46,330 nucleotides of DNA from positions 1 to 46,330 of the forward strand of contig CAINDA010000015.1 in NCBI GenBank assembly GCA_903847205.1, given 5' to 3'. The translations under genes were made by a program, and so were the position numbers. The notes beneath the pieces are model-generated. The model did not search any database. It was given only the letters and a program-made list of their open reading frames with translations, and had not been told where the DNA came from. Below are positions 853 through 16,186 of the stretch, piece after piece. This DNA comes from an uncultured Bacteroidota bacterium. Its GTDB lineage: Bacteria > Bacteroidota > Bacteroidia > 2-12-FULL-35-15. Numbering within the stretch: the stretch's first letter is position 1; the number at the start of each line of letters is the position of its first letter.

Positions 853-3800
853 CTATTTCACCAGCGTAACCCTGCCCGTATATTTATGGCTGTTCATAAA
901 AATATCTTTTGTATCAACTTTATAAACATAAACATCCTGTTTTATAACATCGCCTACACCTTCAAAACGGCCGTTCCAGCCTTCGTCAATATCGCGGGTC
1001 CTGAAAACTTCCGATCCCCAGCGGTCGTAAATAACCATGTTAAATTCAATCACACCAAAAAAACGGGGCCTGAAAGTTTCATTTAAATTATTGCCGTCGG
1101 GCGTAAAAGCATTGGGGAAATAAGCAGTGGTAATAGGGTCAATTTTAATTTCATGTTTCACCGTATCGCGGCAGCCAAACTGGTTGTTAACAATCAGCAC
1201 AACTGTATAAGTGCCGGTATCCTGATAAGTATGGTTTGGGTTCGGATTAATACTGGTAGTTAAATCGCCGAAATCATAATCCCAGAAAGTGGCGCCCACA
1301 GTATTATCGTTAAACTGAATGTCGGGAGTTAACATATCAGTATGATAAGGCGAAGGGGTAAAAGCAGCCGAAGGCGTAGGATGCACCACCACCGCATAAT
1401 GTAAAGTATCAGTCAGTTTACATCCGTACGAACTGGTAACCGTTAACGACGGATAATAACTTCCGGGAGTAACATAAGTATGGGTAGGTGCAAAAAAATC
1501 AGTATAGTTGCCGTCGCCGAAATCCCAAAACCAGTTTACAATATTACCGCCGCTTACCGTGGAGCTGTCGCGGAAGGTGGTAGTAAATTTATTACATCCG
1601 GCAAGCGGGAACGGCGCAAAATGAAATTCGTTTAAAGGATATGTTTCTACAAGTTTGGTAAGCGTATCCACACAGCCTAAACTTGTGAGGATGGCAAGCT
1701 TTACTGTAAAAGTATCTTTTAAAGTCAACAAAACATGACTGGCATTAAAAGTTGTATCGGTGGTTCCATCCCCGAAACTCCACCAGGTATTTGAAATGGT
1801 TCCGGATGATAAGGTAGAGTTATTTGTAAACACGGTTGTATCGCCCCAGCATACCTTGCTGCTTGTAAATAATGCCGCCGGTTTCGGATAAACGGTTATG
1901 GTATTTGTTACCGTATCGCCGCAGCCCATACCCGACGAAATTATTAATGTTACACTATAATTATTTGCCGAAGCATATAAATGTGTCGGATTTTGAAGTA
2001 TGCTGGTACCGCCGTCGCCGAAATTCCAGTGCCACGTTACCGGAGGCCCTATAGAGCTGTCGTTAAAAATACTTGGCTGCAGTTCGCAGGTATTGGCTGC
2101 CGTAAAATGAGCTCCCGGGTAAGGGTTTACTACAATAGTATCAAGCGCAGTATTGGCGCAGCCCCCGTCCGACATAACCGTATGAGTGATATAATAAGTA
2201 CCCGCAGTAACATAAGTATGCGATGTATTTAGTGTTGTTACCGGCAGCGAGCCGTCGCCGTAATCCCAGGTATCCGAAAGCAGGTTGCCCAAAGCAATAG
2301 TAGTATTATCATGCATTGCAACCAATGTATTTAAGCAGGTGTTATTAATAGCAATAATACCCGCATGTACATCACTCCGCACCTGTATTATCCTGAATAC
2401 AATATCGTTGCAGCCGCCAAAACTGGTAACCTTTAAAGAAGCTATATACACACCGCCGGCTGCATATAAATGCGAAGCTGTATGGCTTGTGCTGTCAATG
2501 CTGCCGTCGCCGAAATCCCAAAGCCATGCAATAGGATTCCCGGTTGAAAAATCAGTAAACGAGGTCGGCGTGCCTACGCAGATGGTATCGGCATGAAAAT
2601 GTGCTGCAGGTACAATATCTACAGTAACCGGTATTGTAACCGAACTGTCGCATCCGTTTACATTGGTAACCTTTAACAACACGTTATAAACTCCTGCTCC
2701 ATTCAAAAAAATATGATTCGGGTTTTTGACAGAAGCTGTATTGCCGTCATCGAAATTATAGACCCATGCATTAATAGGCACCGCATCAGTTGATAAATCA
2801 GTAAAAGCTGCCATAGTTCCTGCGCAGCCCGGAATTACAGAAAACATCGGTTTCGGAATGGTATGAACAACCTCCTGTTTCACAATAGTATCGGCACAGC
2901 CCGAAGTATTGGTAACAATCAAACTTACCGTATAATTGCCGCTGCCCAGAAAAGCATGAACCGGATCTCTTAAAGCCGAAGTAAAACCATCGCCGAAATC
3001 CCATAACCAGTTCGATATTCCTGTTCCTGTTGAATTATCGGTAAATACCGCGCTGTCTCTCGCACATAAATTAGTTATTGTATTAGCAGCAACCGGATTC
3101 GGCAGCACAGTTATAAACTGCGAAACGGAATTGCTGCAGCCGAAAACAGTTTTCACTTCAAGCTGCACACTGTAATTTCCCGGGTTTGCATAAATATGCT
3201 GCGGCGATTGAAGCGTATCAATTGCTGTTACGTCACCAAAATTCCAATACCATTTTGCGGCAGCGGTTGAATGGTCGGTAAAAATAGTAGGATAGGTATG
3301 GCAGGCTGCCGAGGTTGTAAATGCTGCAACAGGATTAGGATTTACAATAATTGAATGAATAACAGTATCGGTACATCCCAATGAATTTGATACTATTAAG
3401 GTAACAGCATAAGTGCCTCTAATAGCATATAAATGAACAGGAGAATTGCTGATACTTGCCGCGCTGCCATCGCCGAAATCCCATATCCACGATACTGCTG
3501 CAGTAGAGTGGTCAGTAAAAGTAGTTGAAGTACCGGCGCATACCGTATCAAAAGCAAATACTGCCACAGGCAGGGTATTTACCACAGCAGTTTTTACAAT
3601 TGAATCGGCACAGCCGAACACGTTTTTTGTAATAAGTGTTACTGTATAACTTACAGATGCAGCATAACCATGTGTGGGATTTTGCAGCGTGTCATGTGCC
3701 GTACCGTCGCCAAAGTTCCAGTTCCATTTTACAGGAGAGCCGGCAGTGTTATCAGTAAAAACCGACGAATAATATAAGCAGGGGGTGCTGCTTGTAAAAT

Positions 3801-6800
3801 TGGGAATGGTTCTCGGAAATACAGTCACACTTTTAGTGATGCTTTTAGTACAGCCGGTTGATAAATACCCCGCCGTAAAAGTAACATTATAAGTTCCGGC
3901 CGCAGCATAAGCATATTTCGGTGTAGGATTATTTGTATTATCAGAATAGCCGTTGCCGAAACTCCAGCTGAAGGTATCCGGCGCTCCTGTTGATGTATTG
4001 TTAAACGAGATGGTATCCTTGGTACATTCAGGAGTAAATGAAAAATCGGTTCCTGCTAATGGGTTAACAGTAATCAAATTAGTAACAGTATCAGCACAGC
4101 CGCTGCCGCCCGAAGCAATCATCATTACATGATAAACACCTGCCGCAGCATATTTATGTTTCGGATTGTGAAGGCTGCTCAAGGCCGATCCGTCATTAAA
4201 ATCCCAGGTCCAGCCTATAACGTTCCCAATGGTTTGATCAGTAAATACGGTTGAATCTCCCAAGCAGGGAGTTGTAGCTGAAAATGCAGCCGTTGGTATG
4301 GTGTTTATCAAAACAGTATGTGAAGCAGAATTTGAACAGCCCGCTAAGTTTTTCACTGTGAGTATTACAGTATAACTTCCCGGATTTGCATAAGTGTGTA
4401 ATGGCGAATGAAGAGTATCTAAAGCTGAACCATCGGCATAGTTCCAGCTCCATTTTGCTGCAGATACTGAGCTGTCGTTAAATACTGTCGGATAAGTATG
4501 GCAGGCAGTTGCTGCCGAAAATGCTGCAACAGGATTCGGTTTCACAAAAACAGCATGTGTGATAGAATCAAGACAGCCCAAAGAGTTTGTTACAACCAAT
4601 TTAACATTATAGCTTCCGTTTCCGGGAAAAAGATGTGACGGCGATCGGATTGTACTTACAGGACTGCCGTCATTAAAATTCCAGCTCCATGTGGATGCTG
4701 AAACAGATTGATCGGTAAAGGATATTGCTGTATTGTCGCACACGGTATCAAATACAAATACGGCTGTTGGCAGCGGATTTACAACAGTAGTTTTTGTAAT
4801 TGAATCGCGGCAGCCAAAGGTATTGGCAGCTATAAGTTTTACTGTATATATGCCCGCACCTGCATAGCTGTACACCGGACTTTGACTAGTATTAACAGCG
4901 CTGCCGTCGCCGAAATTCCATTTCCACTGCGTCGGTGTATTTAAAGTATTATCAGTAAAAACTGTTGCCGCATTCAGGCAGGGTGTTGTGCTGCTGAAAT
5001 TTGGCACAGTGCGCGGATGAACAATAACTGGTATTGTTATACTATTGGTGCAGCCCGTTGCCGAATAACCCGCAGTAAGTATCACATTATATGTTCCGGC
5101 AATGGTATAAACAAATTTTGGTGCCGGGTTATTGGTATTATCCGTAAAGCCGTTCCCGAAATTCCATGAATAAGTATTAGGTAAATAAAGCGATGTGCTG
5201 CTGAAAAACATAGTATCGTTTTTACAAACGGCTGCTGATGTAAAATTGGCCGAAGGTATCAGGTTTACCTTAACCGGATTTGTAACGGTATCAGAACAGC
5301 CGCTTGCCGAAAATGCAACAAGGGTTACACTGTATGTTCCCGAATCGGCATAAACATGCGATGGGTTCTGCAGCGCGCTCGTTCCTAAATCACCAAAATT
5401 CCACATCCAGCTTATTGGCGATACAGTTGTTTGGTTGTTGAATAAGGTGCTGTGCATCATGCATTCTGTAGGAGCACTGAAAGCTGCAATAGGTACCGAT
5501 TTTACAATTACCGGATGGGTAACGGATTTTGAACAGCCTAATAAATTTACATCTGTAAGAGTCACATTATAAGTACCGCTTGCAGCGTAAGTATGCTGCG
5601 GGCTCAAAGCAGTATCATGAGGGGAGCTGTCGCCGAAATCCCAGCTCCGGCTTACAATGTTTCCGGTTGATGAATTCGTGAATTTTGTTGCAACGCCGAA
5701 ACATGCGCTGGTATTTGAAAATGCAGCCACCGGCAGACTGTCAATCACAATTAATTGCTGTGTTGAATCCTTGCACGAAAATGACGTAGTTGCAATCAAT
5801 CTCGCAATATAATTATTAGGCGATCCGTAAATATGCGTCGGATTGGTAAGAGTACTTGTTGTGCCGTCGCCAAAACGCCAAAGATAGGTTGCAACCCCAT
5901 TCGGGCTCGAACCATTTAAAAACTGAAGGCTGGTATTGGCGCATACAGTATCATTTGGATTAGGAGTAAATAAAGCAACAGGATTAGGATGCACAGTTAC
6001 TGCATGGGTAATACTGTCTCTGCATCCATTAAGCGCAGTAATCACCAGTTTTATATTAAAAACATTGTCGCTCGTGGTAGTGGTATATATCTGCGAAGGC
6101 GGGTTTTGTAAAACCGAGGTTATTCCGTTGCCTAAGGTCCAGAAGTAAGTATCGCCTGCTGTAACAGGGCTGGTATTATTAAAAATTCTGCTTACAGGCG
6201 TACATCCCGAAAACGAAGCTGGCGTGGCGGTAAAAGAAGGCACCGGCTTAGGGTCAATATTGATATAAGTACTGTCGTTTGTTGAACAGCCCAGCACTGT
6301 TGCCGTAATCCACACCAGCTTAACACCAGAGGAGGTAAAAGTTTTTGTAGGCGGTATATATTGATTTGATGTGGCAGGCACCGCCCCGTTAAAATGCCAT
6401 AGATAAGTTCCGCCGGGGGTAGAATTATTGGTAAAATTCACCATCAGGCCAACGCAGCCGGCATTTACATCAGGCACTATATCAGCCGTCGGAAATGGAT
6501 TAACAGTTACTGTTACTGCTTTTCTTGGTCCTACGCATCCATTTATGGTTGTCTGAACATAATATATTGTTGTGGCTGCTACGGAGGGTATAATATATAC
6601 AGCGCCCGTACTTAAAAGCGTTCCGGCTGTGGGTGCATCATACCACTCGTATGTTCCGCCCGGTGCCGTTGCTGTAAGTGTTGCTGTATTGCCTGTACAC
6701 ACGCTTACTGAAGCCGCTGTCGGCAGTGCCGGTGTCGGTTTTACTGTTACTGTATCTTTTGTGCGCGGGCCGGGACAGTGGTTTACTATTGCTAATACAT

Positions 6801-8619
6801 AATACTTTTTTGTGATGCTGAGTACCGGCGTTGTGTAGGATGGCCCGGTGAATAAAACAGTTCCGGCAGTTACAGTATCATACCATTGAAAACTTGCTCC
6901 TAAAGGGGCGGTGGCATTCAGTGTTGCAGAAAACCCCTGACATATAATAGCACTCAGTGATGTCGGCGCCGCCGGCAGCGGAATCACAGTTACGTAAACT
7001 GGAACTCTTGAACTCACACAGCCTTGATATTCGGTTTGAATCCAATAGGTAGTATTGGCAGTCAGGCTTGGAGTATAATAACTTGCCCCCTGATTCAGCA
7101 TTGTTCCGCCGGTTGAAACGCCGTACCACTGAATATTCCCGCCGGCACTGTTTAAGGAAGCAAACAAAGTTGCTCTGTTCCCGGAACAAATGGTATCATT
7201 TAATCCTGTTGGAGGATTCGGGGTTGGAAATACTGTTAATTCCGACGTATCTGCTGATGAGCCGCAAAATCCGTTAACAGTTATTCTGGTGGAGTAGGAG
7301 CCGGGATTAGCAAATGATTCAGGTAAAGGGGTCAGCAATGTGGATGTATGCCCATTTCCGAAATTCCATAAATAACTTAGTGAATCACCGCAGGCTGTTT
7401 GTGTATAAGAAAATTGAAAATTTTGACCCGCACAGATAGTTGCATTGCTTGGAGAAATTATTGTATTTACAGCCGGATGTACTTTTATTGAAACTGTGGT
7501 ATCATGAACTCCGCCCCCGCATTGATTTGAAACCAGCAAACGCACAATATGTGTTGCCAGTGTATTGCACGATGGAGCCGTTAAAACCGGGAACATGGTA
7601 GCAGAAGTTGATGTGCTTACCCCATCAACAAACCATTGGTATGTTAAGTTGCCTCCTGTTGAACTATTGGTGGTGCCTAATGTTAAAGGAGTGCAGCCAT
7701 CGACAGAACTAACGCTCATAATTGCTTTTGGTATCGTGTCAATTTCAATTGACCGGTACATGGTGTCTAATCCGCATCCGTTTCCAGCCACCATCATAAT
7801 TGTATAAGTGCCTGTGTGATATATTTGCGGGGCAGGCACCTTCACCCCGGTTGATGTATTGCCGTTTCCAAAATTCCAATGAAAATTTGTTGCCGGGGCC
7901 TCGCCGGTTGTCGTATTTCCAAAAGTGACTGTTTGTGTTGCACAGCCGGGACTTGGAGTGGCTGTAAAATTCTGAATCGGTTTAACCAGAACAGTTATCG
8001 GATTGCTTGCTGTATTGGTGCATGTTCCCCCGTTATTTATGGTCAGCGAAACACTCGCTGCCCCGGTTGAATAAGTATGAGTTGGACTAATAGATGTTGA
8101 TGTGGTGCCGTCGCCGAAATTCCATAAATAACTTGTAAAAGCTCCTGTTCCGGTTGAAGTATTTGTAAAAGTAATAGGTGTTCCAATACATTGGCTGGTA
8201 TTAGGGCTGAAAGTAAAACTTGCTGCAGGAACCGGCCTGATATAAACATTAACTATTGCTGTGTCTTTGCAGGAAGCTGCACCTGTAGCAATCATCATAA
8301 AAGTATAGGTGCCTACGGCAGAAATTATACCACTGTTTGGAGGAGCTCCTGCAAAGGTTGTTGTTCCGCCAAACTGCACATTGTTCATGTACCATTTATA
8401 GGTTGCGGCTGCTGCTCCTGTCCCCGTGCTTGTTTGAGTAAAGGATATAATATATGAACCCGAACCGCAGATTACTGATTGAGATGCAGTAAATGATGTA
8501 TTGATAGTTGCGCAGTCGGCAAATGTTTTTACAGTAAATAATAAAAAAAGAACAGACACAAAAACAGAGTGAATTGTTTTTGTTTTAAAATTGCCGGCTT
8601 TTTTTGTAGAAATCCTCAT
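853..8619 (-). CDS. Giant PKD-repeat surface protein with T9SS type B sorting domain
   Basis: A 2588-residue secreted protein. An N-terminal signal peptide (hydrophobic stretch to about residue 34, ending FADC) is followed by about 25 PKD-like domains recognisable by WxWxFGDG cores. Around residues 470-720 there are three Ig-like domains of the kind that accompany gliding-motility proteins (ICxGxxATL and YxTPxL motifs). The last ~90 residues (FPNAFTPDGNN, YDRWGSEVF, WNGRFEG) are the gliding-motility-associated CTD that directs export by T9SS and surface attachment. It is likely an adhesin or matrix protein; the ligand is unknown. Five consecutive PKD domains are duplicated as a 400-residue block (see findings). 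It is probably monocistronic: REP elements lie downstream and a -7 box (8668-8675) upstream. Confidence 0.93.
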   Translation of the reverse strand: MRISTKKAGNFKTKTIHSVFVSVLFLLFTVKTFADCATINTSFTASQSVICGSGSYIISFTQTSTGTGAAAATYKWYMNNVQFGGTTTFAGAPPNSGIISAVGTYTFMMIATGAASCKDTAIVNVYIRPVPAASFTFSPNTSQCIGTPITFTNTSTGTGAFTSYLWNFGDGTTSTSISPTHTYSTGAASVSLTINNGGTCTNTASNPITVLVKPIQNFTATPSPGCATQTVTFGNTTTGEAPATNFHWNFGNGNTSTGVKVPAPQIYHTGTYTIMMVAGNGCGLDTMYRSIEIDTIPKAIMSVSSVDGCTPLTLGTTNSSTGGNLTYQWFVDGVSTSTSATMFPVLTAPSCNTLATHIVRLLVSNQCGGGVHDTTVSIKVHPAVNTIISPSNATICAGQNFQFSYTQTACGDSLSYLWNFGNGHTSTLLTPLPESFANPGSYSTRITVNGFCGSSADTSELTVFPTPNPPTGLNDTICSGNRATLFASLNSAGGNIQWYGVSTGGTMLNQGASYYTPSLTANTTYWIQTEYQGCVSSRVPVYVTVIPLPAAPTSLSAIICQGFSATLNATAPLGASFQWYDTVTAGTVLFTGPSYTTPVLSITKKYYVLAIVNHCPGPRTKDTVTVKPTPALPTAASVSVCTGNTATLTATAPGGTYEWYDAPTAGTLLSTGAVYIIPSVAATTIYYVQTTINGCVGPRKAVTVTVNPFPTADIVPDVNAGCVGLMVNFTNNSTPGGTYLWHFNGAVPATSNQYIPPTKTFTSSGVKLVWITATVLGCSTNDSTYINIDPKPVPSFTATPASFSGCTPVSRIFNNTSPVTAGDTYFWTLGNGITSVLQNPPSQIYTTTTSDNVFNIKLVITALNGCRDSITHAVTVHPNPVALFTPNPNDTVCANTSLQFLNGSSPNGVATYLWRFGDGTTSTLTNPTHIYGSPNNYIARLIATTSFSCKDSTQQLIVIDSLPVAAFSNTSACFGVATKFTNSSTGNIVSRSWDFGDSSPHDTALSPQHTYAASGTYNVTLTDVNLLGCSKSVTHPVIVKSVPIAAFSAPTECMMHSTLFNNQTTVSPISWMWNFGDLGTSALQNPSHVYADSGTYSVTLVAFSASGCSDTVTNPVKVNLIPSANFTSAAVCKNDTMFFSSTSLYLPNTYSWNFGNGFTDNTNNPAPKFVYTIAGTYNVILTAGYSATGCTNSITIPVIVHPRTVPNFSSTTPCLNAATVFTDNTLNTPTQWKWNFGDGSAVNTSQSPVYSYAGAGIYTVKLIAANTFGCRDSITKTTVVNPLPTAVFVFDTVCDNTAISFTDQSVSASTWSWNFNDGSPVSTIRSPSHLFPGNGSYNVKLVVTNSLGCLDSITHAVFVKPNPVAAFSAATACHTYPTVFNDSSVSAAKWSWNYADGSALDTLHSPLHTYANPGSYTVILTVKNLAGCSNSASHTVLINTIPTAAFSATTPCLGDSTVFTDQTIGNVIGWTWDFNDGSALSSLHNPKHKYAAAGVYHVMMIASGGSGCADTVTNLITVNPLAGTDFSFTPECTKDTISFNNTSTGAPDTFSWSFGNGYSDNTNNPTPKYAYAAAGTYNVTFTAGYLSTGCTKSITKSVTVFPRTIPNFTSSTPCLYYSSVFTDNTAGSPVKWNWNFGDGTAHDTLQNPTHGYAASVSYTVTLITKNVFGCADSIVKTAVVNTLPVAVFAFDTVCAGTSTTFTDHSTAAVSWIWDFGDGSAASISNSPVHLYAIRGTYAVTLIVSNSLGCTDTVIHSIIVNPNPVAAFTTSAACHTYPTIFTDHSTAAAKWYWNFGDVTAIDTLQSPQHIYANPGNYSVQLEVKTVFGCSNSVSQFITVLPNPVAANTITNLCARDSAVFTDNSTGTGISNWLWDFGDGFTSALRDPVHAFLGSGNYTVSLIVTNTSGCADTIVKQEVVHTIPKPMFSVIPGCAGTMAAFTDLSTDAVPINAWVYNFDDGNTASVKNPNHIFLNGAGVYNVLLKVTNVNGCDSSVTIPVTVDIVPAAHFHADTICVGTPTSFTDFSTGNPIAWLWDFGDGSIDSTSHTASHLYAAGGVYIASLKVTSFGGCNDIVFRIIQVRSDVHAGIIAINNTCLNTLVAMHDNTTIALGNLLSDTWDYGDGSLPVTTLNTSHTYVTAGTYYITHTVMSDGGCANTALDTIVVNPYPGAHFTAANTCELQPSIFNDSSIGPPVTWHWNFGDGGTSILQNPTHLYASANNYSVTLIISSGMGCGDTVTNTITVYPKPAALFTSSKVCWGDTTVFTNNSTLSSGTISNTWWSFGDGTTDTTFNASHVLLTLKDTFTVKLAILTSLGCVDTLTKLVETYPLNEFHFAPFPLAGCNKFTTTFRDSSTVSGGNIVNWFWDFGDGNYTDFFAPTHTYVTPGSYYPSLTVTSSYGCKLTDTLHYAVVVHPTPSAAFTPSPYHTDMLTPDIQFNDNTVGATFWDYDFGDLTTSINPNPNHTYQDTGTYTVVLIVNNQFGCRDTVKHEIKIDPITTAYFPNAFTPDGNNLNETFRPRFFGVIEFNMVIYDRWGSEVFRTRDIDEGWNGRFEGVGDVIKQDVYVYKVDTKDIFMNSHKYTGRVTLVK

Positions 8620-8988: not shown

Positions 8989-11922
8989 TTATTTGCCCCT
9001 ATCCAAAAATCCGAGTTTTTCCATATATGTCACTTCAATACTCGGGAAACCGAATTCTTCCACAACCTTTCCTTTTATCTGGTAACAGCCTTTTCCAGCG
9101 AAGGGATATTTTGCAAGCACATTAGGGAAATGAGTGGTATCAAAAAAATAACCTTCCGAATCAATGAAAGTTCCAAACGACATATCCTGTCCGTTTACGG
9201 TTCTTGTAATTTTACGGGTAACCAGATAGCCAATGATAACAATGCTTTCATTTATATGTTTGATTAAATCCTGCATATTCAAATTGCTTTTTACAGGCTC
9301 TTTCAATAACGAAAAGGGCGAACATAGTGGGAAACCTAAAATTTCAATTTCATCTAATGCGTCATCATAAGGATGATGGTGCAGTTCAGGAAGTTTAAAT
9401 TCCTTTTTCGATATTTCGAAAAGCTCCTGCTTAGGATTGGTTTTTCTCTGTCCGCCGAGTATGCTGTGTATTTCCCAGAGCAGTGCTTTTTTTGATTTTT
9501 CCGTAAAACGGAAAGAGCCTATGCGGATTAATATGCGAAGCTGTTCCACTGAAATACTTACCCGCTTCATAAAGTTTTCCAGACTTTTGAAAGCGCCATT
9601 GTTCTCCCGTTCCAGCAGCAGCATCTGAGCGGTGTTCCGTTCCAGTTCAGCTAAATGAACGAAACCTATATAAATTATCTCGGCATCAATGGATGTTAAA
9701 TATTCGCTTCGGTTTACGCAGGGCGCAGCAATTTCGGCACCCGACATTCTTGCTTCGTGTACATAATTTTCGGTCCGGTAAAAACCGCCGAAATTATTAA
9801 TCACACCCACCATAAACTCCTTCGGGAAATAGGCTTTCAAATACAAACTCTGGTAACTCTCTACCGCATACGATGCCGAATGCCCTTTAGAGAAGGAATA
9901 TCCGGCGAAACTTTCAATCTGCCGCCATACTTCATTGGTGATTTCATCGGGGTAACCTCTGTCTTTACAATTGCTGAAAAAATCTTGCTGCGCTTTCTGA
10001 AACTCTGCTCTTGCCCTGTATTTGCCCGACATTCCCCTGCGCATCACATCAGCCTGAGCCAAGGTAAGCCCTGCAAAGTAGTGGGCAACTTTAAGCACAT
10101 CTTCCTGATATACCATAATACCGTAGGTTTCACTCATCAGCTCGCCTATTTTCGGATGAATGTATTTTCTCCGTTCGGGATTGCGGAACCGTAAAATGTA
10201 TTCACGCATCATACCCGACTTAGCAACGCCGGGGCGGATAATAGAGCTTGCAGCTACCAATCCTAAATAGGTATCTGTTTCCAGTTTCTTTAAAAGCATG
10301 CGCATAGCGGGCGATTCAACATAAAAGCAGCCCATTGTTCTCCCGGTTCGCAGCAGCTGTTTTATTTTTTCATCCAGTTTAAAAGCCTTGATGTTGTGGA
10401 TGTCGATGTCGATACCTTTGTTTTTTTTAACGATGCCGATGGTGTCTTTTATATGCCCCAATCCGCGCTGGCTGAGAATATCAAATTTGTATAGCCCGGC
10501 GTCTTCTGCTTCCAGCATACTGAACTGCGTCAGGGGATAGCCTTTCGGAGGCATGCTCACTGCCGAATAATAATTAATCGGTTTTTCTGAAATTAAAATA
10601 CCGCCCGCATGAACGCTCAAATGGCTGGGGAAATCATGGATATGCTTACTGTATTGAAAAATAAGTCTGGTGATATTATCAGGTGTCTGCGCGGATTTTC
10701 TGTTATCAACCAAATCATCAATCTCGCCTTTCGGCAGTCCGAATACTTTACCCAGTTCCCTGATTACAGAACTCGCCTGGAAGGTGTTGTAGGTCGCCAG
10801 CAGGGCAGTATGAGCTGTTCCGTAACGTTCAAAAATATAGCGGGTAATATCATCGCGGTCTTTCCACGAAAAATCCATATCAAAATCGGGAGGGTTCACC
10901 CGGTATGGATTCATGAAGCGTTCGAAATATAAATCCAGATCAATAGGGTCGACATCTGTTATTTTTAGACAATAAGCTGCTAAGCTGTTGGCACCGCTTC
11001 CCCGTCCGATATAAAAATAATTTTTGCTCTGGGCATAGGTTACAATGTCCCAGGTGATTAAAAAATAAGAACAGAATTTCATTTTAGCAATTGCTTCCAG
11101 CTCTCTGTCCAGGCGCTCGCAAACAACAGCATCAGGCTTCCCATAGCGGTATCTAAGCCCTTTATAGCAGAGGTCTTTCATCAGGGCTTCATCCTCGCTT
11201 ATGCTGCTGGTAAAAGTGCTTTTATTTTTATTTGTTCCAAACTCAAAACTGATTTCGCAGCTGTCAATAATTTTTTTTGTGTTCTCGATTAACTGAGGAT
11301 AGTCTTCGAAAATCCTGCACAGCTCCGTTTCCGGAAGCATCACCTCATTTTCATTGGCCTGCTCTGATACCGGTAGTTTGCTTAAGAGTGTATTGTTATC
11401 AATGGCTCTCAGCAGGCGGTGGGCATTAAAATCTTTTTTATGCCGGAAGGTAACAGGATGTAAGATTACGAGCTTGTGTAAATATTTTTTAGTTTCAGAA
11501 AAAAGCAGTTTATTCAAATCAGAAATACGTATGCCGATGTATTCATTTTCTCTCAATGCTTCGGGATGAATGGCATTGAATGGATAAATAACATAACAGT
11601 TTTGAAACTCCGGAGCCTGCACCTGAAAAGGAACCTGTTCACACAAATACGCTGAAAGATGCTGGTTGAGCTCCGTAAAGCCTTCATTGTTTTTTGCAAT
11701 GCCGATGTAATGCTGCTTTACTCCTTCTCGGAAATCAATCCCCGCAATGGGTTTGATGTTGTATTTAGATGCTTCCCTTACAAATTCCAGGACGGCGGAA
11801 GTATTATTAATATCAGCTGTTACAAATGATGTTACTCCCTTGCTTTGGGCTTCTTCTAACAGCTGCGCTACGGACATCGTGCCGTATTTGAAGCTGAAAT
11901 AGGTGTGGCAGTTGAGGTACAT
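8989..11922 (-). CDS. dnaE2: Error-prone DNA polymerase III alpha subunit (DnaE2/ImuC-type)
   Basis: A 977-residue C-family polymerase, shorter than a replicative DnaE (about 1160). In order: a PHP-like domain (1-65), the palm/thumb/fingers core, an HhH region and a C-terminal OB-fold (about 890-970). The catalytic aspartates are present: PDFDMDF gives D348 and D350, and KFDILSQRGL gives D481. GRGSGANSLAAY (about 307-318) and GYSFSKGHSASYA are conserved DnaE blocks. The PHP metal-binding motif is eroded: the usual TDHGN reads ADINN, so PHP-linked proofreading is unlikely. There is no tau-binding tail. The setting (dinB upstream on the same strand, a LexA-like repressor next to dinB) fits the damage-inducible translesion paralogue. 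No imuA-like gene is present. It could be a second DnaE with another role, but the neighbours argue for mutagenesis. Confidence 0.88.
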   Translation of the reverse strand: MYLNCHTYFSFKYGTMSVAQLLEEAQSKGVTSFVTADINNTSAVLEFVREASKYNIKPIAGIDFREGVKQHYIGIAKNNEGFTELNQHLSAYLCEQVPFQVQAPEFQNCYVIYPFNAIHPEALRENEYIGIRISDLNKLLFSETKKYLHKLVILHPVTFRHKKDFNAHRLLRAIDNNTLLSKLPVSEQANENEVMLPETELCRIFEDYPQLIENTKKIIDSCEISFEFGTNKNKSTFTSSISEDEALMKDLCYKGLRYRYGKPDAVVCERLDRELEAIAKMKFCSYFLITWDIVTYAQSKNYFYIGRGSGANSLAAYCLKITDVDPIDLDLYFERFMNPYRVNPPDFDMDFSWKDRDDITRYIFERYGTAHTALLATYNTFQASSVIRELGKVFGLPKGEIDDLVDNRKSAQTPDNITRLIFQYSKHIHDFPSHLSVHAGGILISEKPINYYSAVSMPPKGYPLTQFSMLEAEDAGLYKFDILSQRGLGHIKDTIGIVKKNKGIDIDIHNIKAFKLDEKIKQLLRTGRTMGCFYVESPAMRMLLKKLETDTYLGLVAASSIIRPGVAKSGMMREYILRFRNPERRKYIHPKIGELMSETYGIMVYQEDVLKVAHYFAGLTLAQADVMRRGMSGKYRARAEFQKAQQDFFSNCKDRGYPDEITNEVWRQIESFAGYSFSKGHSASYAVESYQSLYLKAYFPKEFMVGVINNFGGFYRTENYVHEARMSGAEIAAPCVNRSEYLTSIDAEIIYIGFVHLAELERNTAQMLLLERENNGAFKSLENFMKRVSISVEQLRILIRIGSFRFTEKSKKALLWEIHSILGGQRKTNPKQELFEISKKEFKLPELHHHPYDDALDEIEILGFPLCSPFSLLKEPVKSNLNMQDLIKHINESIVIIGYLVTRKITRTVNGQDMSFGTFIDSEGYFFDTTHFPNVLAKYPFAGKGCYQIKGKVVEEFGFPSIEVTYMEKLGFLDRGK

Positions 11923-12489
11923 TTATTCTGAGTTTGTTCAAAATTGAATATTTGATTGCGGAAAAATAATACCGCTTCGTATAAGCATTTTTATTTTTTT
12001 TAAGAAAAAAGAAAAACACAAAGCTTCTTAAATCCTTATGGAATGCAGTTTTGTATAGTGACCTGAGTTCCGTTGAAAGATAGATTCTATTAATCCAGAT
12101 TCATCTCCGAATCATGATTTTTCTTTCTTTTGCTTCTCCAAAAGAAAGAAACAAAGAAAAAGAGACCACGAAAACCAACCTCAAGCTTTCGTTTACCCGC
12201 TAAAACCCAACGCTATGTGCCACGAAACTTGCGGTTCGCACTTTTCGCGGCCGCCAACCGCACCTATGTTTACTTCCCGTCGCAGCAAAAAAATATTTAT
12301 GAAACCGCGCGTGAGGAATGAACAAACGCGATGTTGTGCTGCCTGTGGGGAGGAATCGTTTGTTCTTGAAGGCCCCGCACCAGCCGGCTCAAATATGCAC
12401 TGCAGATTTGCCCTGTTTCTTTTTTTTTAAGAAAAAAGAAAGCACACAGTTTTACAAATTATAAGAATATTTCTTAAAATCGAATTTAG
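11923..12489. repeat. Spacer between dinB and dnaE2 bounded by 21-nt direct repeats
   Basis: A 567-bp spacer separates two genes expected to be co-transcribed. An identical 21-nt sequence (eight T, AAG, six A, GAAA) occurs at 11994-12014 and 12421-12441. Between them is a perfect 13-bp stem (TTTCTTTCTTTTG at 12120-12132 with its complement at 12139-12151). A stretch around 12170-12410 is visibly richer in GC than its surroundings. Short open frames there (for example 12130-12321 plus) are basic, low-complexity and match nothing I know. It looks like an inserted repeat cassette, perhaps with terminator-like hairpins at its edges. Confidence 0.55.
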
Positions 12490-13674
12490 CTAACTCGCCA
12501 GCCCATTAAAAGGATTAAATTTCCTGAGCTGATAACCCGCAGAAATTGCACGCTGTATTTTATCATCACCGTATTTTTTTCTTAAATTATCCATTGCCTG
12601 ATAGAGTTTCATCATCTGTTCAGAATCATCAAACATATTTATCTGGTAAGCACCTCCCACCAAATGACTGAAACGTACGCCCACTAAACGTATCAGCATT
12701 CTTTTCTGATACAATTTTTCAAACAGTTCTTTCACCTTGCTGATTAATGTATGATCGCAGGAAGTGTAGGCTATCCGCGCCTGATGAGAAAATGTATCAA
12801 AATTTGAGTAACGGATTTTTACCGTGATGCAGGATGTAAGCTTGCCTTCGCTGCGCATCTGATACGCTAATTTTTCTGTCATCGCTACCAGCGTAGATTT
12901 CAGCTTGGTCAAATCAGTTGTATCGCTGTCGTAGGTTTCTTCTGTTGAAAGAGATTTGCGCTCCGAATACTGCTCAACAGGCGTATTGTCAATGCCGTTG
13001 GCTTTTCTCCAGATGGAGATGCCGTTTACACCCAGTACATTTTCGAGCAGCTCTACAGGCATTTCCTGTAAAGTTTTTATTTTTTCAACCCCCATGCTTC
13101 TGAGCAGATGCGTTGTTTTTTCACCTACCATGGGGATTTTGCTTACCGGCAGCGGCGAAAGAAAACTTTTCTCTGTTCCGAAATTAATCTGCATCTGTCC
13201 GTTGGGCTTGGCTTCTCCGGTAGCTACTTTAGAAACAGTTTTGTTTTTCGACAAGCCGAATGAAATAGGAAGCCCGGTTTCTTTCTGAATTTTCTGTCTT
13301 AATTCGGTTGCCCATTTATAACTGCCGAAGAATTTATCCATTCCCGAAATATCGAGGTAAAACTCATCAATAGAAGCCTTTTCATAAACGGGTGCCTGTT
13401 CGTGGATGATGCCGGTAATGATGTTGGAATACTTGCTGTAGTTTTCATAATCGCCCCTGATGATAAGGGCTTCGGGGCACAATCTTTTTGCCAGCTTCAT
13501 CGGCATAGCCGAGTGTATGCCGAATTTCCGTGCTTCGTAGCTGCAGGATGCTACTACGCCTCTGTCGCTGTTGCCGCCTACTAACACCGGTTTCCCGATT
13601 AAGGCGCTGTTCTGCAGCCGCGATACTGATACAAAAAAAGTATCCAGATCCATGTGTACTATCGTCCGCTCCAT
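12490..13674 (-). CDS. dinB: DNA polymerase IV (Y-family, DinB)
   Basis: A 394-residue translesion polymerase. Catalytic carboxylates are D9 (HMDLDTFF) and D103/E104 (SIDEFYLDIS). F14 is in the steric-gate position next to the active site. GKPVLVGG, the CSYEARKFGI finger motif and the HhH region SKIPMVGEKT (about 178-187) are all in place, followed by the little-finger domain. QINMF at residues 344-348 is a good beta-clamp-binding motif. Length and motifs match DinB rather than ImuB, whose active site is lost. It is divergent from the S24 repressor gene (195 bp between start codons) and upstream of dnaE2 on the same strand, so it is likely under that repressor. Confidence 0.95.
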   Translation of the reverse strand: MERTIVHMDLDTFFVSVSRLQNSALIGKPVLVGGNSDRGVVASCSYEARKFGIHSAMPMKLAKRLCPEALIIRGDYENYSKYSNIITGIIHEQAPVYEKASIDEFYLDISGMDKFFGSYKWATELRQKIQKETGLPISFGLSKNKTVSKVATGEAKPNGQMQINFGTEKSFLSPLPVSKIPMVGEKTTHLLRSMGVEKIKTLQEMPVELLENVLGVNGISIWRKANGIDNTPVEQYSERKSLSTEETYDSDTTDLTKLKSTLVAMTEKLAYQMRSEGKLTSCITVKIRYSNFDTFSHQARIAYTSCDHTLISKVKELFEKLYQKRMLIRLVGVRFSHLVGGAYQINMFDDSEQMMKLYQAMDNLRKKYGDDKIQRAISAGYQLRKFNPFNGLAS

Positions 13675-13700
13675 CTTGCTGTCTGAGGTAAACGCATCTA

Positions 13701-13766
13701 ATCAGGGCGTTTCAATTATTTAATAACCATGGCTGTGTTTACTTTTTATTGAAACAGGCCCCTGAT
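13701..13766. promoter_or_regulatory. Imperfect inverted repeat in the dinB upstream region
   Basis: ATCAGGGCGTTTCAAT (13701-13716) is mirrored by ATTGAAACAGGCCCCTGAT (13748-13766), with a 3-nt difference between the arms. It lies 27 bp upstream of the dinB start codon in the divergent region. It may be an operator or an RNA hairpin in the dinB leader. No TAnnTTTG box is evident for dinB. Confidence 0.35.
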
Positions 13767-13836
13767 ATAGACAGCGTATTTATCTTTTAAAAGAACTGAA
13801 ATAAAATATTCACTTTCCGGTTTCAAAGTTACCAAT

Positions 13837-13868
13837 ATATTTAGTAATATTGTGCTAAAATATTTAGC
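13837..13868 (+). promoter_or_regulatory. Candidate operator/promoter of the LexA-like repressor
   Basis: ATATTTAG occurs twice, at 13837-13844 and 13860-13867, 23 bp apart. The downstream copy is part of a perfect inverted repeat GCTAAA-ATA-TTTAGC (13854-13868). TAATATTG (13845-13852) matches the -7 box at 7 of 8 positions and sits between the copies, about 21 bp after TTTC at 13820. Binding here would block the promoter and the start codon at 13870, as expected for autoregulation. Confidence 0.5.
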
Positions 13869-13869
13869 A

Positions 13870-14625
13870 ATGTCAAAAATAGCCAAAAATATTAGGGTTT
13901 TGAGGACACTTAAAAAGTTATCCCAGGAGCAGTTATCCGAAAAATTGAATATTCCGCGTTCACGATTAGGTTCGTATGAAGAGGGCAGGGCCGAGCCGTC
14001 GTATGATTTATTAATAATAATTGCCGATTATTTTCATATGGCCATTGATGCTTTGGTCCGCGCCGATTTGTCGAAAACGGATCCTGAAGCATTAATCAAA
14101 ATCGGGAAAAACAGAATTCTGTTTCCTGTATTGGTAGATAATAAAAACAACGATATAATAGAAGTTGTTCCTGTAAAGGCTTCTGCCGGCTACCTTACCG
14201 GCTATTCCGATCCGCAGTTTATAGAGGAGCTTGCGGTAATGAACCTGCCCTTTAAAATTACAGGCAAACACCGCGCATTTGGGATAAAGGGCGATTCGAT
14301 GCCGCCATTAAAAGAAGGAGCTGTGGTGGTGGGCAAATATGTAGAATCATTGGAAGATATTAAAGATGGACAGACGTATATCGTACTCACTAAAAACGAC
14401 GGCTTGGTTTATAAACGCTTATACCGCGAAAATAAATCGAACAGCTTATTAAAATTTCATTCGGATAATTCGGCGTATCAGCCTTACAACGTTAAAACCA
14501 GCGAGATTTTAGAAGTATGGCATTTTACTTGCAGCTTAAATATCGGGGAGTTTAAACCCCAGGATTTGAATATTGATAATGTGATAAGGTTTTTGCAGTC
14601 GTATCGGGTGGAGATGGGTAAATAA
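13870..14625 (+). CDS. LexA-like transcriptional repressor (XRE HTH + S24 peptidase)
   Basis: A 251-residue protein. An XRE-type helix-turn-helix occupies residues 7-60 (LSQEQLSEKL, RSRLGSYEEGR). A C-terminal S24/LexA-type autopeptidase follows, with Ser143 in GDSM and Lys182 in VYKRL; Ala106-Gly107 in KASAGYLTGY is the expected self-cleavage bond. Such proteins repress damage-response genes until RecA filaments trigger cleavage. It is divergent from dinB, so those polymerase genes are its obvious targets. I chose the ATG at 13870; a GTG at 13852 in frame would add six residues but overlaps the putative -7 box. Classical LexA has a winged helix rather than an XRE domain, so the name lexA is withheld. 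Confidence 0.92.
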   Translation: MSKIAKNIRVLRTLKKLSQEQLSEKLNIPRSRLGSYEEGRAEPSYDLLIIIADYFHMAIDALVRADLSKTDPEALIKIGKNRILFPVLVDNKNNDIIEVVPVKASAGYLTGYSDPQFIEELAVMNLPFKITGKHRAFGIKGDSMPPLKEGAVVVGKYVESLEDIKDGQTYIVLTKNDGLVYKRLYRENKSNSLLKFHSDNSAYQPYNVKTSEILEVWHFTCSLNIGEFKPQDLNIDNVIRFLQSYRVEMGK

Positions 14626-14655
14626 TTGGTAACAGGGCGAATTAAGGTTAAACGA

Positions 14656-14777
14656 ATGGAACGCAGATGACGCGGATGATTAAGATTAAAGATGATTTTT
14701 TTTCGTAAATTTATGATTAAATATGGTTTTGTTTTATCTGTGTTTATCCTAAAAAATCCGCGTCATCTGCGTTCCAT
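14656..14777. repeat. Long inverted repeat (REP-type) between the S24 and exonuclease genes
   Basis: Two perfectly complementary 22-nt arms (14656-14677 and 14756-14777; core GACGCGGAT / ATCCGCGTC) enclose 78 bp of AT-rich DNA. The arms belong to a widespread intergenic palindrome type with GCGTCATCTGCGTT cores. The stem could end the repressor transcript and uncouple it from the next gene. Confidence 0.8.
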
Positions 14778-14818
14778 TTTTTCACTTTTCGCAGCTCATA
14801 AAAAATGAATGAATATAA

Positions 14819-16186
14819 ATGTTTGCAATCATTGACATAGAAACCTGCGGCGGAAAATTTGAATTCCGCAGAGGACGTATTACTGAAATCTGTATTCTGA
14901 TACACGACGGCTTAACGGTAACTGAAAAGTTTACCACACTGCTGGATCCCGAATGTTATATCAGTCCGTTTTACACCAACATTACCGGCATTACCAATGA
15001 TATGGTAATGGGCGCACCTAAGTTTCATGAAGTAGCTAAAAAAATAATTGACCTTACGGAAGGCAAAATATTTATTGCTCATAATGTAGGTTTTGATTAC
15101 GGATTTATTAAAAGTGAGTTTGATTCGTTAGGCTATAAATATAAACGCGAAACGCTTTGCACCGTGAGGCTCAGCAGGAAACTGCTTCCGGGTAAAGTCT
15201 CCTACAGTCTCGGAAATTTATGCCAGTCATTAGGAATAGAAAACGAAGCAAGACACCGCGCAGAAGGCGATGCCGTGGCAACAGCCAAATTATTTGATAT
15301 TTTGATGCTGGCTAAAAGCGCTAATCCTCAATATAAAAATCAGGGCGTGGATGAGCTGATGACAAGGCGCATTGATAAAATAAAACAGTACATCCTTGAT
15401 AAATTACCTGAAGAATGCGGTGTCTATTATTTTTTAGATAAAACAGGAAACATCATTTACATCGGCAAAAGCGTGAATGTATATAACCGCGCAATGAGCC
15501 ATTTTAATACAAAAGAGCAGAAAGGAAAAAAAATGCTGAACGATTTGTATAATGTAGATTTTGTGCCGACAGGCAACGAACTGATTGCTTTATTATTGGA
15601 ATCAGAAGAAATAAAAAAGCATAAACCCAGATACAACAAGGCTCGTAAGGCTCACCAATTCACACATTGCATCGATTGGTTTAAAGATGATAAAGGGATT
15701 ATCAATTTTAAAATAGCCGAGTATGAAGAATCGGAAAATGCTTTGCTGTCTTTTACTTCTTATTTAAGTGCAAGGGAGCGTTTAGAATCATTGATTGACG
15801 AATATTCATTATGTCTGCGGTACTGCGGTTTAACAGGCGAAGACGCGGTATGTTTTAATCACCAGATAAAAAAATGCAACGGCATCTGCGATGGACAGGA
15901 AGAAACAGAGGTTTACAACAAACGCGCGAATGACATTTTAAAAAATTATATTTTTATCAATCCTGATTTTGTATTAGTTGATAAAGGAAGAACTCCTGAA
16001 GAGAGGGCTGTTATACTTATTGAAAACGGGCATTATTCAGGGTTCGGTTATTTTGATTCGTCGGAATCTGTGAGTTCGCCTGAAGAATTTAAAAGTATTG
16101 TAAAGAAGGCGGCTTATTATCCTGATGCGGATGATTTGCTCAGGAGCTGGATGAAACAGAATAAGTATAAATCAATATTGCTTTAG
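14819..16186 (+). CDS. DEDDh exonuclease fused to a UvrC/Cho-like GIY-YIG nuclease
   Basis: A 455-residue fusion. Residues 1-165 are a DnaQ/PolC-type 3'-5' exonuclease with all motifs: D6-E8 (DIET), D93 in HNVGFDYGF, and H146/D151 in HRAEGDA. Residues about 196-280 are a GIY-YIG domain like UvrC/Cho: GVYYF 201-205, IYIGKS 214-219, R224 and E261. Residues 332-357 carry five cysteines (332, 336, 345, 353, 357) in the pattern CLRYCG...CFNHQIKKCNGIC, matching the UvrC cysteine region that holds an iron-sulfur cluster. UvrC's UvrB-binding and C-terminal incision domains are absent. Epsilon-UvrC fusions of this kind are known in mycobacteria and Bacteroidota. It lies next to the repressor/translesion genes, which suggests a repair role; proofreading for DnaE2 is my inference only. 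Confidence 0.9.
   Translation: MFAIIDIETCGGKFEFRRGRITEICILIHDGLTVTEKFTTLLDPECYISPFYTNITGITNDMVMGAPKFHEVAKKIIDLTEGKIFIAHNVGFDYGFIKSEFDSLGYKYKRETLCTVRLSRKLLPGKVSYSLGNLCQSLGIENEARHRAEGDAVATAKLFDILMLAKSANPQYKNQGVDELMTRRIDKIKQYILDKLPEECGVYYFLDKTGNIIYIGKSVNVYNRAMSHFNTKEQKGKKMLNDLYNVDFVPTGNELIALLLESEEIKKHKPRYNKARKAHQFTHCIDWFKDDKGIINFKIAEYEESENALLSFTSYLSARERLESLIDEYSLCLRYCGLTGEDAVCFNHQIKKCNGICDGQEETEVYNKRANDILKNYIFINPDFVLVDKGRTPEERAVILIENGHYSGFGYFDSSESVSSPEEFKSIVKKAAYYPDADDLLRSWMKQNKYKSILL

Follow-up and report, generated by a model that had tools for sequence, protein, structure and literature searches.

The window, by which we mean the whole stretch of 46,330 nucleotides that was analysed, carries four genes of DNA repair or mutagenesis on either side of a divergent promoter. 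The ORF list and the Pfam domains agree with the first-pass annotation on where these genes lie and which domains they encode, with dinB and dnaE2 on the minus strand and the repressor and fusion on the plus strand. The genes, boxes, neighbourhoods, covariation and strand preference described below were read from the sequence. The features are as follows.

8989..11922, minus strand: DnaE2-like C-family polymerase, 977 aa (ORF list, Pfam, motif alignment)
12040..12470, no strand: repeat-bearing spacer between dinB and dnaE2 (31 match rows in its own genome, itself included)
12490..13674, minus strand: DinB of the PolY2 kind, 394 aa, with QINMF and a C-tail like the RecA N-terminus (ORF list, Pfam, NCBIfam)
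13697..13771, minus strand: conserved hairpin, 75 nt, candidate structured RNA in the dinB direction (promoter alignment, covariance model)
13832..13844, no strand: upstream SOS-type box CCAATATATTTAG, one mismatch (pattern search; position conserved)
13855..13867, no strand: SOS-type box CTAAAATATTTAG, exact CTAA-N5-TTAG (pattern search; position conserved)
13870..14625, plus strand: HTH_3 + S24 repressor of the non-canonical LexA kind (ORF list, Pfam, alignment of relatives)
14655..14778, no strand: 36-nt inverted repeat between repressor and fusion (other sites of the genome have partial copies)
14819..16186, plus strand: DnaQ (DEDDh) exonuclease joined to a GIY-YIG domain of the UvrC/Cho type, 455 aa (ORF list, Pfam, alignment)

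A 2588-aa protein of repeats that look PKD-like by eye adjoins the island at window positions 853-8619.

The repressor had been described as a LexA-like S24 autopeptidase. Its identity as an SOS-type repressor is supported: HTH_3 and Peptidase_S24 both score above their Pfam cut-offs and a box lies at the gene's own promoter. The listed ORF (13852-14625, plus strand) opens with a GTG. The start is most likely the ATG at 13870, because the GTG lies inside the operator and relatives align from the ATG. Read by eye, KASAGY, GDSM and VYKR would provide the Ala-Gly cleavage site and the Ser-Lys dyad. The winged helix-turn-helix that marks canonical LexA (LexA_DNA_bind, PF01726) was not found by Pfam in the window repressor, which has HTH_3. 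The protein appears to fit the non-canonical LexA of the Bacteroidetes (PMC8565304), with which it shares HTH_3 plus S24, a CTAA-N5-TTAG box predicted at its own promoter and an adjoining error-prone polymerase. That paper reports that such a repressor and an opposite error-prone polymerase were both induced by mitomycin C, and that canonical LexA is absent from the Bacteroidetes. Two things set the window apart from the repressors described there: the repressor is followed in line by an exonuclease fusion, and the divergent promoter contains a hairpin. The word 'hairpin' is absent from the main text of PMC8565304.

Two other repressor genes were seen in the same genome (G000, 5.49 Mb, 72 contigs). 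One encodes a canonical-looking LexA (L173:1252-1869, contig 61 near 72613) with S24 and a LexA_DNA_bind match of 36 bits against a cut-off of 23.7, and by eye it adjoins a large P-loop-like ORF. The other is a second HTH-S24 repressor paralog (L175/L282, contig 8, 84257-84952; 39% identity over residues 4-224), next to an ORF that by eye resembles an SOS-associated peptidase.

The one-mismatch box sits 23 bp upstream of the exact box, and both positions are conserved in 18 aligned promoters of the genus, two of which carry CTAT...ATAG variants. Ahead of close repressors CTAA-N5-TTAG was found in 7 of 24 cases, compared with 0.3 in shuffles. Genome-wide, GCTAA-N5-TTAGC was not enriched (3 sites, and 3 for a control pattern), nor was the box with one mismatch enriched in the window (28 seen, 28.3 expected). 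Thus, the case for the boxes rests on their position and conservation. A pattern search of the whole window found no exact box ahead of dnaE2 or the fusion, and 2 of the 64 dnaE2 genes examined were preceded by one (0.4 in shuffles).

The polymerase arm consists of dinB and a C-family polymerase gene. The C-family protein has the Pfam domains PHP, DNA_pol3_alpha, finger and HHH_6, and its Asp motifs PDFDMDF and KFDILS align with PDFDVDF and KFDFLG of E. coli alpha. Its NCBIfam scores do not clearly indicate DnaE2, as the DnaE1 model (569.9 bits, cut-off 1002) scores higher than the error-prone DnaE model (453.3, cut-off 939); we call it DnaE2-like by its size, its context and the published papers. 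DinB has IMS and IMS_C domains in Pfam and lies above the cut-off of NCBIfam PRK02406 (Pol IV). Residues D9, D103 and E104, which we take to be catalytic, are invariant in 8 relatives and were aligned with Pol IV structures. Judged by these intact residues, DinB is apparently active. Its tail holds the clamp-like motif QINMF, as the first-pass annotation had pointed out, and resembles the N-terminus of RecA: 1 of 500 shuffles was as good for the window protein, and 0 to 25 of 500 for the tails of seven relatives, of which L005 was weakest.

In its own genome we found two C-family polymerases, one Y-family match, which is the dinB of the island, and one RecA-family match, which is RecA itself. 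Because these are the sole matches to the two families, neither ImuA nor ImuB is in evidence in the genome. The classical ImuA-ImuB-DnaE2 mutasome also places a Y-family protein and DnaE2 under an SOS repressor, but we reject it here because the genome has no ImuA and no inactive ImuB. The annotation's view that an active DinB takes their place is supported, with an apparently active DinB beside a DnaE2-like polymerase. The pair seems to fit the published DnaE2B-PolY-RecA set instead. According to PMC6511836 and PMC12926913, Bacteroidetes have an active PolY and DnaE2 without ImuA/ImuB, and RecA has been proposed as the partner. The window shares with that set an active-looking PolY, a RecA-like tail, an adjoining short DnaE2-like polymerase and the absence of ImuA/ImuB. 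It differs in that a repeat-bearing spacer splits dinB from dnaE2 in this genome.

The fusion protein has the Pfam domains RNase_T and GIY-YIG, and its GIY-YIG part aligns with UvrC structures. It shares with the Cho+Exo and Cho-like+Exo proteins (PMC1564403) and with the NCBIfam PRK07883 models a two-domain architecture, in which an N-terminal DnaQ-type exonuclease is followed by a UvrC/Cho-type GIY-YIG domain. PMC1564403 proposes for these exonuclease-GIY-YIG fusions an incision and then digestion through the lesion. The window protein differs from them in scoring below the cut-offs of those PRK07883 models that were listed (best 262.9 bits against 495) and in adjoining an SOS repressor, and some members of the genus have the exonuclease half only. 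Over residues 1-173 the exonuclease half (window 14819-15335) also hits PDC-S48, a candidate defence family of PADLOC (E 8.3e-43), probably through the common DEDDh fold.

The island had been called compact. The four genes do lie together, but the gap from dinB to dnaE2 measures 567 bp and that from the repressor to the fusion 193 bp, and each contains sequence that recurs in partial form at other places in the genome (431 bases of the first gap were searched). In relatives the dinB-dnaE2 gap can be 2-23 bp and the repressor-fusion gap 2-6 bp; others are longer. Both operons are interrupted in this genome. In genome G185 (L053) we noted by eye a Bro-N-like ORF between the hairpin and the repressor (5947-6312) and an IS200-like transposase between the repressor and the fusion (7350-7793).

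The first-pass annotation had joined the four genes into one unit while recognizing that the individual families are known. The second point is confirmed, since the repressor, the PolY-DnaE2 set and the exonuclease are all in print (PMC8565304, PMC6511836 and PMC12926913), and the genes of the island belong mostly to published kinds. To judge the first, we examined the best 80 of a larger number of DinB (PolY2) loci and 100 fusion loci. The latter were taken down the ranked list of matches with some rows skipped and are not a random sample. The neighbour counts are lower bounds because some contigs end near the genes. Among the best 80 PolY2 loci of more, dnaE2 was in the fetched stretch at 64 and a repressor-family gene at 35, of which 14 were close relatives of the window repressor. 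The fusion is in the fetched stretch at 4 of these best 80, each time just downstream of the repressor. Among the 100 fusion loci, taken from the matches listed, 85 had neither the repressor nor the polymerases in the stretch. Another 12 had a repressor upstream on the same strand; 10 of these repressors are closely related to that of the window, and 6 of the 10 lie 2-6 bp from the fusion. The repressor, dinB and dnaE2 were nearby in another order at 2, and dinB and dnaE2 only at 1. These counts lead us to reject the idea that the four genes form one fixed unit throughout the phylum. The proposed unit is partly right, in that the fusion is associated more with the repressor than it is with the polymerases.

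Fusions that lack an upstream repressor can still carry the box. CTAA-N5-TTAG precedes 5 of 88 such genes (shuffle mean 0.9, largest 3; reversed control 0), and in 4 of the 5 it lies 42-56 bp ahead of the start. The upstream stretches averaged 335, not 260, bases, and at least one contig-edge locus was over-long.

Within the genus we compared 33 loci with an orthologous repressor. A divergent dinB is present at 10 and a UmuC-like polymerase at 6, with a fragment of one in L265. The repressor is followed by the full fusion at 11 loci and by a DnaQ-only protein, which aligns to roughly residues 1-170 or 1-187 of the fusion, at 10 (broken in L260). Beside those DnaQ-only genes that were searched, no GIY-YIG remnant was convincing (best E 0.21). 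The dinB gene occurs with the full fusion at 8 loci and the UmuC-like gene with the DnaQ-only gene at 5, and there are no crossed cases. This pairing may be a single switch, because the counts ignore kinship.

We consider it unlikely that the fusion stands outside the damage module and lies near the polymerases by chance. Its scarcity at the best 80 PolY2 loci and the 85 listed loci where it stands without the other genes would suit such a reading. However, it is opposed by the short repressor-fusion gaps at 6 of the 100 listed loci, the boxes ahead of solitary fusions in excess of shuffles, the prediction in PMC8565304 that a GIY-YIG exonuclease is under both SOS motifs, and the way in which the exonuclease type tracks the polymerase type in the genus.

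The hairpin, which the first-pass annotation had not noted, was exposed as a conserved block (13697-13771) by alignment of the divergent promoters. A covariance model built from 9 copies matched 11 of 395 genomes of the class at E up to 0.01, 9 of them in the genus; the 2 weak matches outside it (G200, G320) lie inside coding frames and were rejected as chance. The genus search gave 35 matches, of which 22 were strong, 3 were weak and 10 were opposite-strand images of palindromic copies, which were not counted. Of 36 genomes of the genus, 22 carry a single copy, and every one of these copies lies ahead of the orthologous repressor, on the strand opposite to it. Three diverged copies are at the expected place (L253, L273 and L275; E 0.006, 0.012 and 0.088), and with weak copies included the hairpin is present at 25 of the 33 repressor loci. 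Its distance to the repressor start ranges from 72 to 725 bp and is 95-98 bp in 13 of 25, while on its far side the neighbour varies between dinB, a UmuC-like gene and other genes. Thus, the hairpin stays beside the repressor even where the polymerases have been swapped or lost. Among the best 80 PolY2 loci of more, the model matches one (L105). No Rfam family reached its gathering score over the hairpin in the window; the best sub-threshold candidate, CRISPR-DR6, was rejected (18.1 bits against 39).

Several analyses addressed the fold. The window hairpin folds better than 200 of 200 dinucleotide shuffles on both strands, and for L056 and L022 1 of 200 shuffles folds as well on one or both strands (kinship ignored). 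In a 23-sequence alignment, 8 of 10 outer pairs have changes on both sides. Cells pair in 90.8% of cases, compared with 71.6% in shuffles and 34-48% in slid controls, and the covariation score of this alignment was reached by none of 500 shuffles. An alignment-free arm swap gave -25.7 kcal/mol for matched arms and -16.6 for swapped arms, with 0 of 5000 permutations as low. Ranked among all 3' arms, with kinship ignored, the own arm comes first or second at 17 of 23 loci; it is 14th in L260 and 12th in L265, where own arms pair no better than swapped ones. The loop GCC[A/G]UGGUU is invariant in 23 of 23 copies. A peptide read from the loop in the orientation of the repressor was rejected, as the frame fails early in L251 and L252. 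Because of the covariation, RNA is the most likely nature of the hairpin.

On balance the sequence points most likely to a small RNA, linked to damage, which can also serve as the leader of dinB. A bolder reading, somewhat less likely than not, is that the small RNA stands alone: it would be transcribed away from the SOS repressor, share the tandem boxes with it and have outlasted polymerase swaps and losses as an SOS-linked regulatory RNA, of which the tiny loop ORF may be translated. A narrow search of the open-licence PMC literature found no SOS-linked regulatory RNA in this Bacteroidota group.

Somewhat more doubtful, in our judgement, is that the hairpin serves the divergent mRNA solely as its 5' leader, acting by attenuation or translation control, perhaps through the loop micro-ORF, and makes no separate RNA. 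A leader would explain why the hairpin ends 16-33 bp ahead of dinB in the window, L053, L055, L056 and L105, why a micro-ORF of 3-4 codons with a stop opens in the loop in 21 of 22 copies, and why a co-directional gene of 1066-1097 aa lies 82-451 bp on in L256, L259, L262, L263 and L265, where the polymerase is missing. But it is the repressor, not the divergent gene, to which the hairpin keeps a fixed distance, the next gene past the weak matches in L273 and L275 has the opposite orientation, and 9 of 25 copies, the window's not among them, have a terminator-like run of at least 5 T in the next 35 nt. It is quite improbable that the hairpin acts as DNA, as a cruciform, protein site or mobile-element relic in the repressor promoter. 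Good folding on both strands and the fixed spacing to the repressor would allow it, and so would whole-element folding, in which the polymerase strand comes out ahead in only 12 of 22. Against it, matched arms are stabler on the polymerase-direction strand in 22 of 23 copies; the difference is at least 2 kcal/mol in 12 copies on that side and in 0 on the other (kinship ignored; Wilcoxon p about 1e-4), and there is a single copy per genome in 22 genomes, unlike a mobile repeat. A column-based strand test was mixed, with 5 GU against 7 AC in the 6 both-strand pairs and 30 against 10 in the union; kinship was ignored here as in the whole-element folding.

In sum, we think it likely that the locus is a mutagenesis island, inducible by damage and of a Bacteroidota type already known, with the hairpin as its one extra part. 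The hairpin is the new part of the island; the genes are of kinds already published.

Based on these observations, we propose a model in which repressor cleavage, induction, complex formation, the nuclease roles, and the transcription and function of the hairpin RNA are what we infer. The phage-like S24 repressor would bind the tandem CTAA-N5-TTAG boxes over its own promoter and so hold down two divergent arms, repressor-exonuclease and dinB-dnaE2. Upon damage, RecA filaments would form and cause the repressor to cleave itself. DinB (PolY2), which may join RecA through its C-tail, could then act with DnaE2 in lesion bypass, and the fusion may incise damaged DNA with its GIY-YIG domain and trim it with its DnaQ domain. 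The hairpin, between the boxes and dinB, would have been kept by selection as an RNA read in the polymerase direction.

The repressor and the hairpin persist while the polymerase on one side and the nuclease module on the other are swapped, which shows how such modules can be reassembled with the sensor left in place. Should the hairpin RNA prove real, these Bacteroidota would have in their SOS response an RNA layer tied to the repressor gene.
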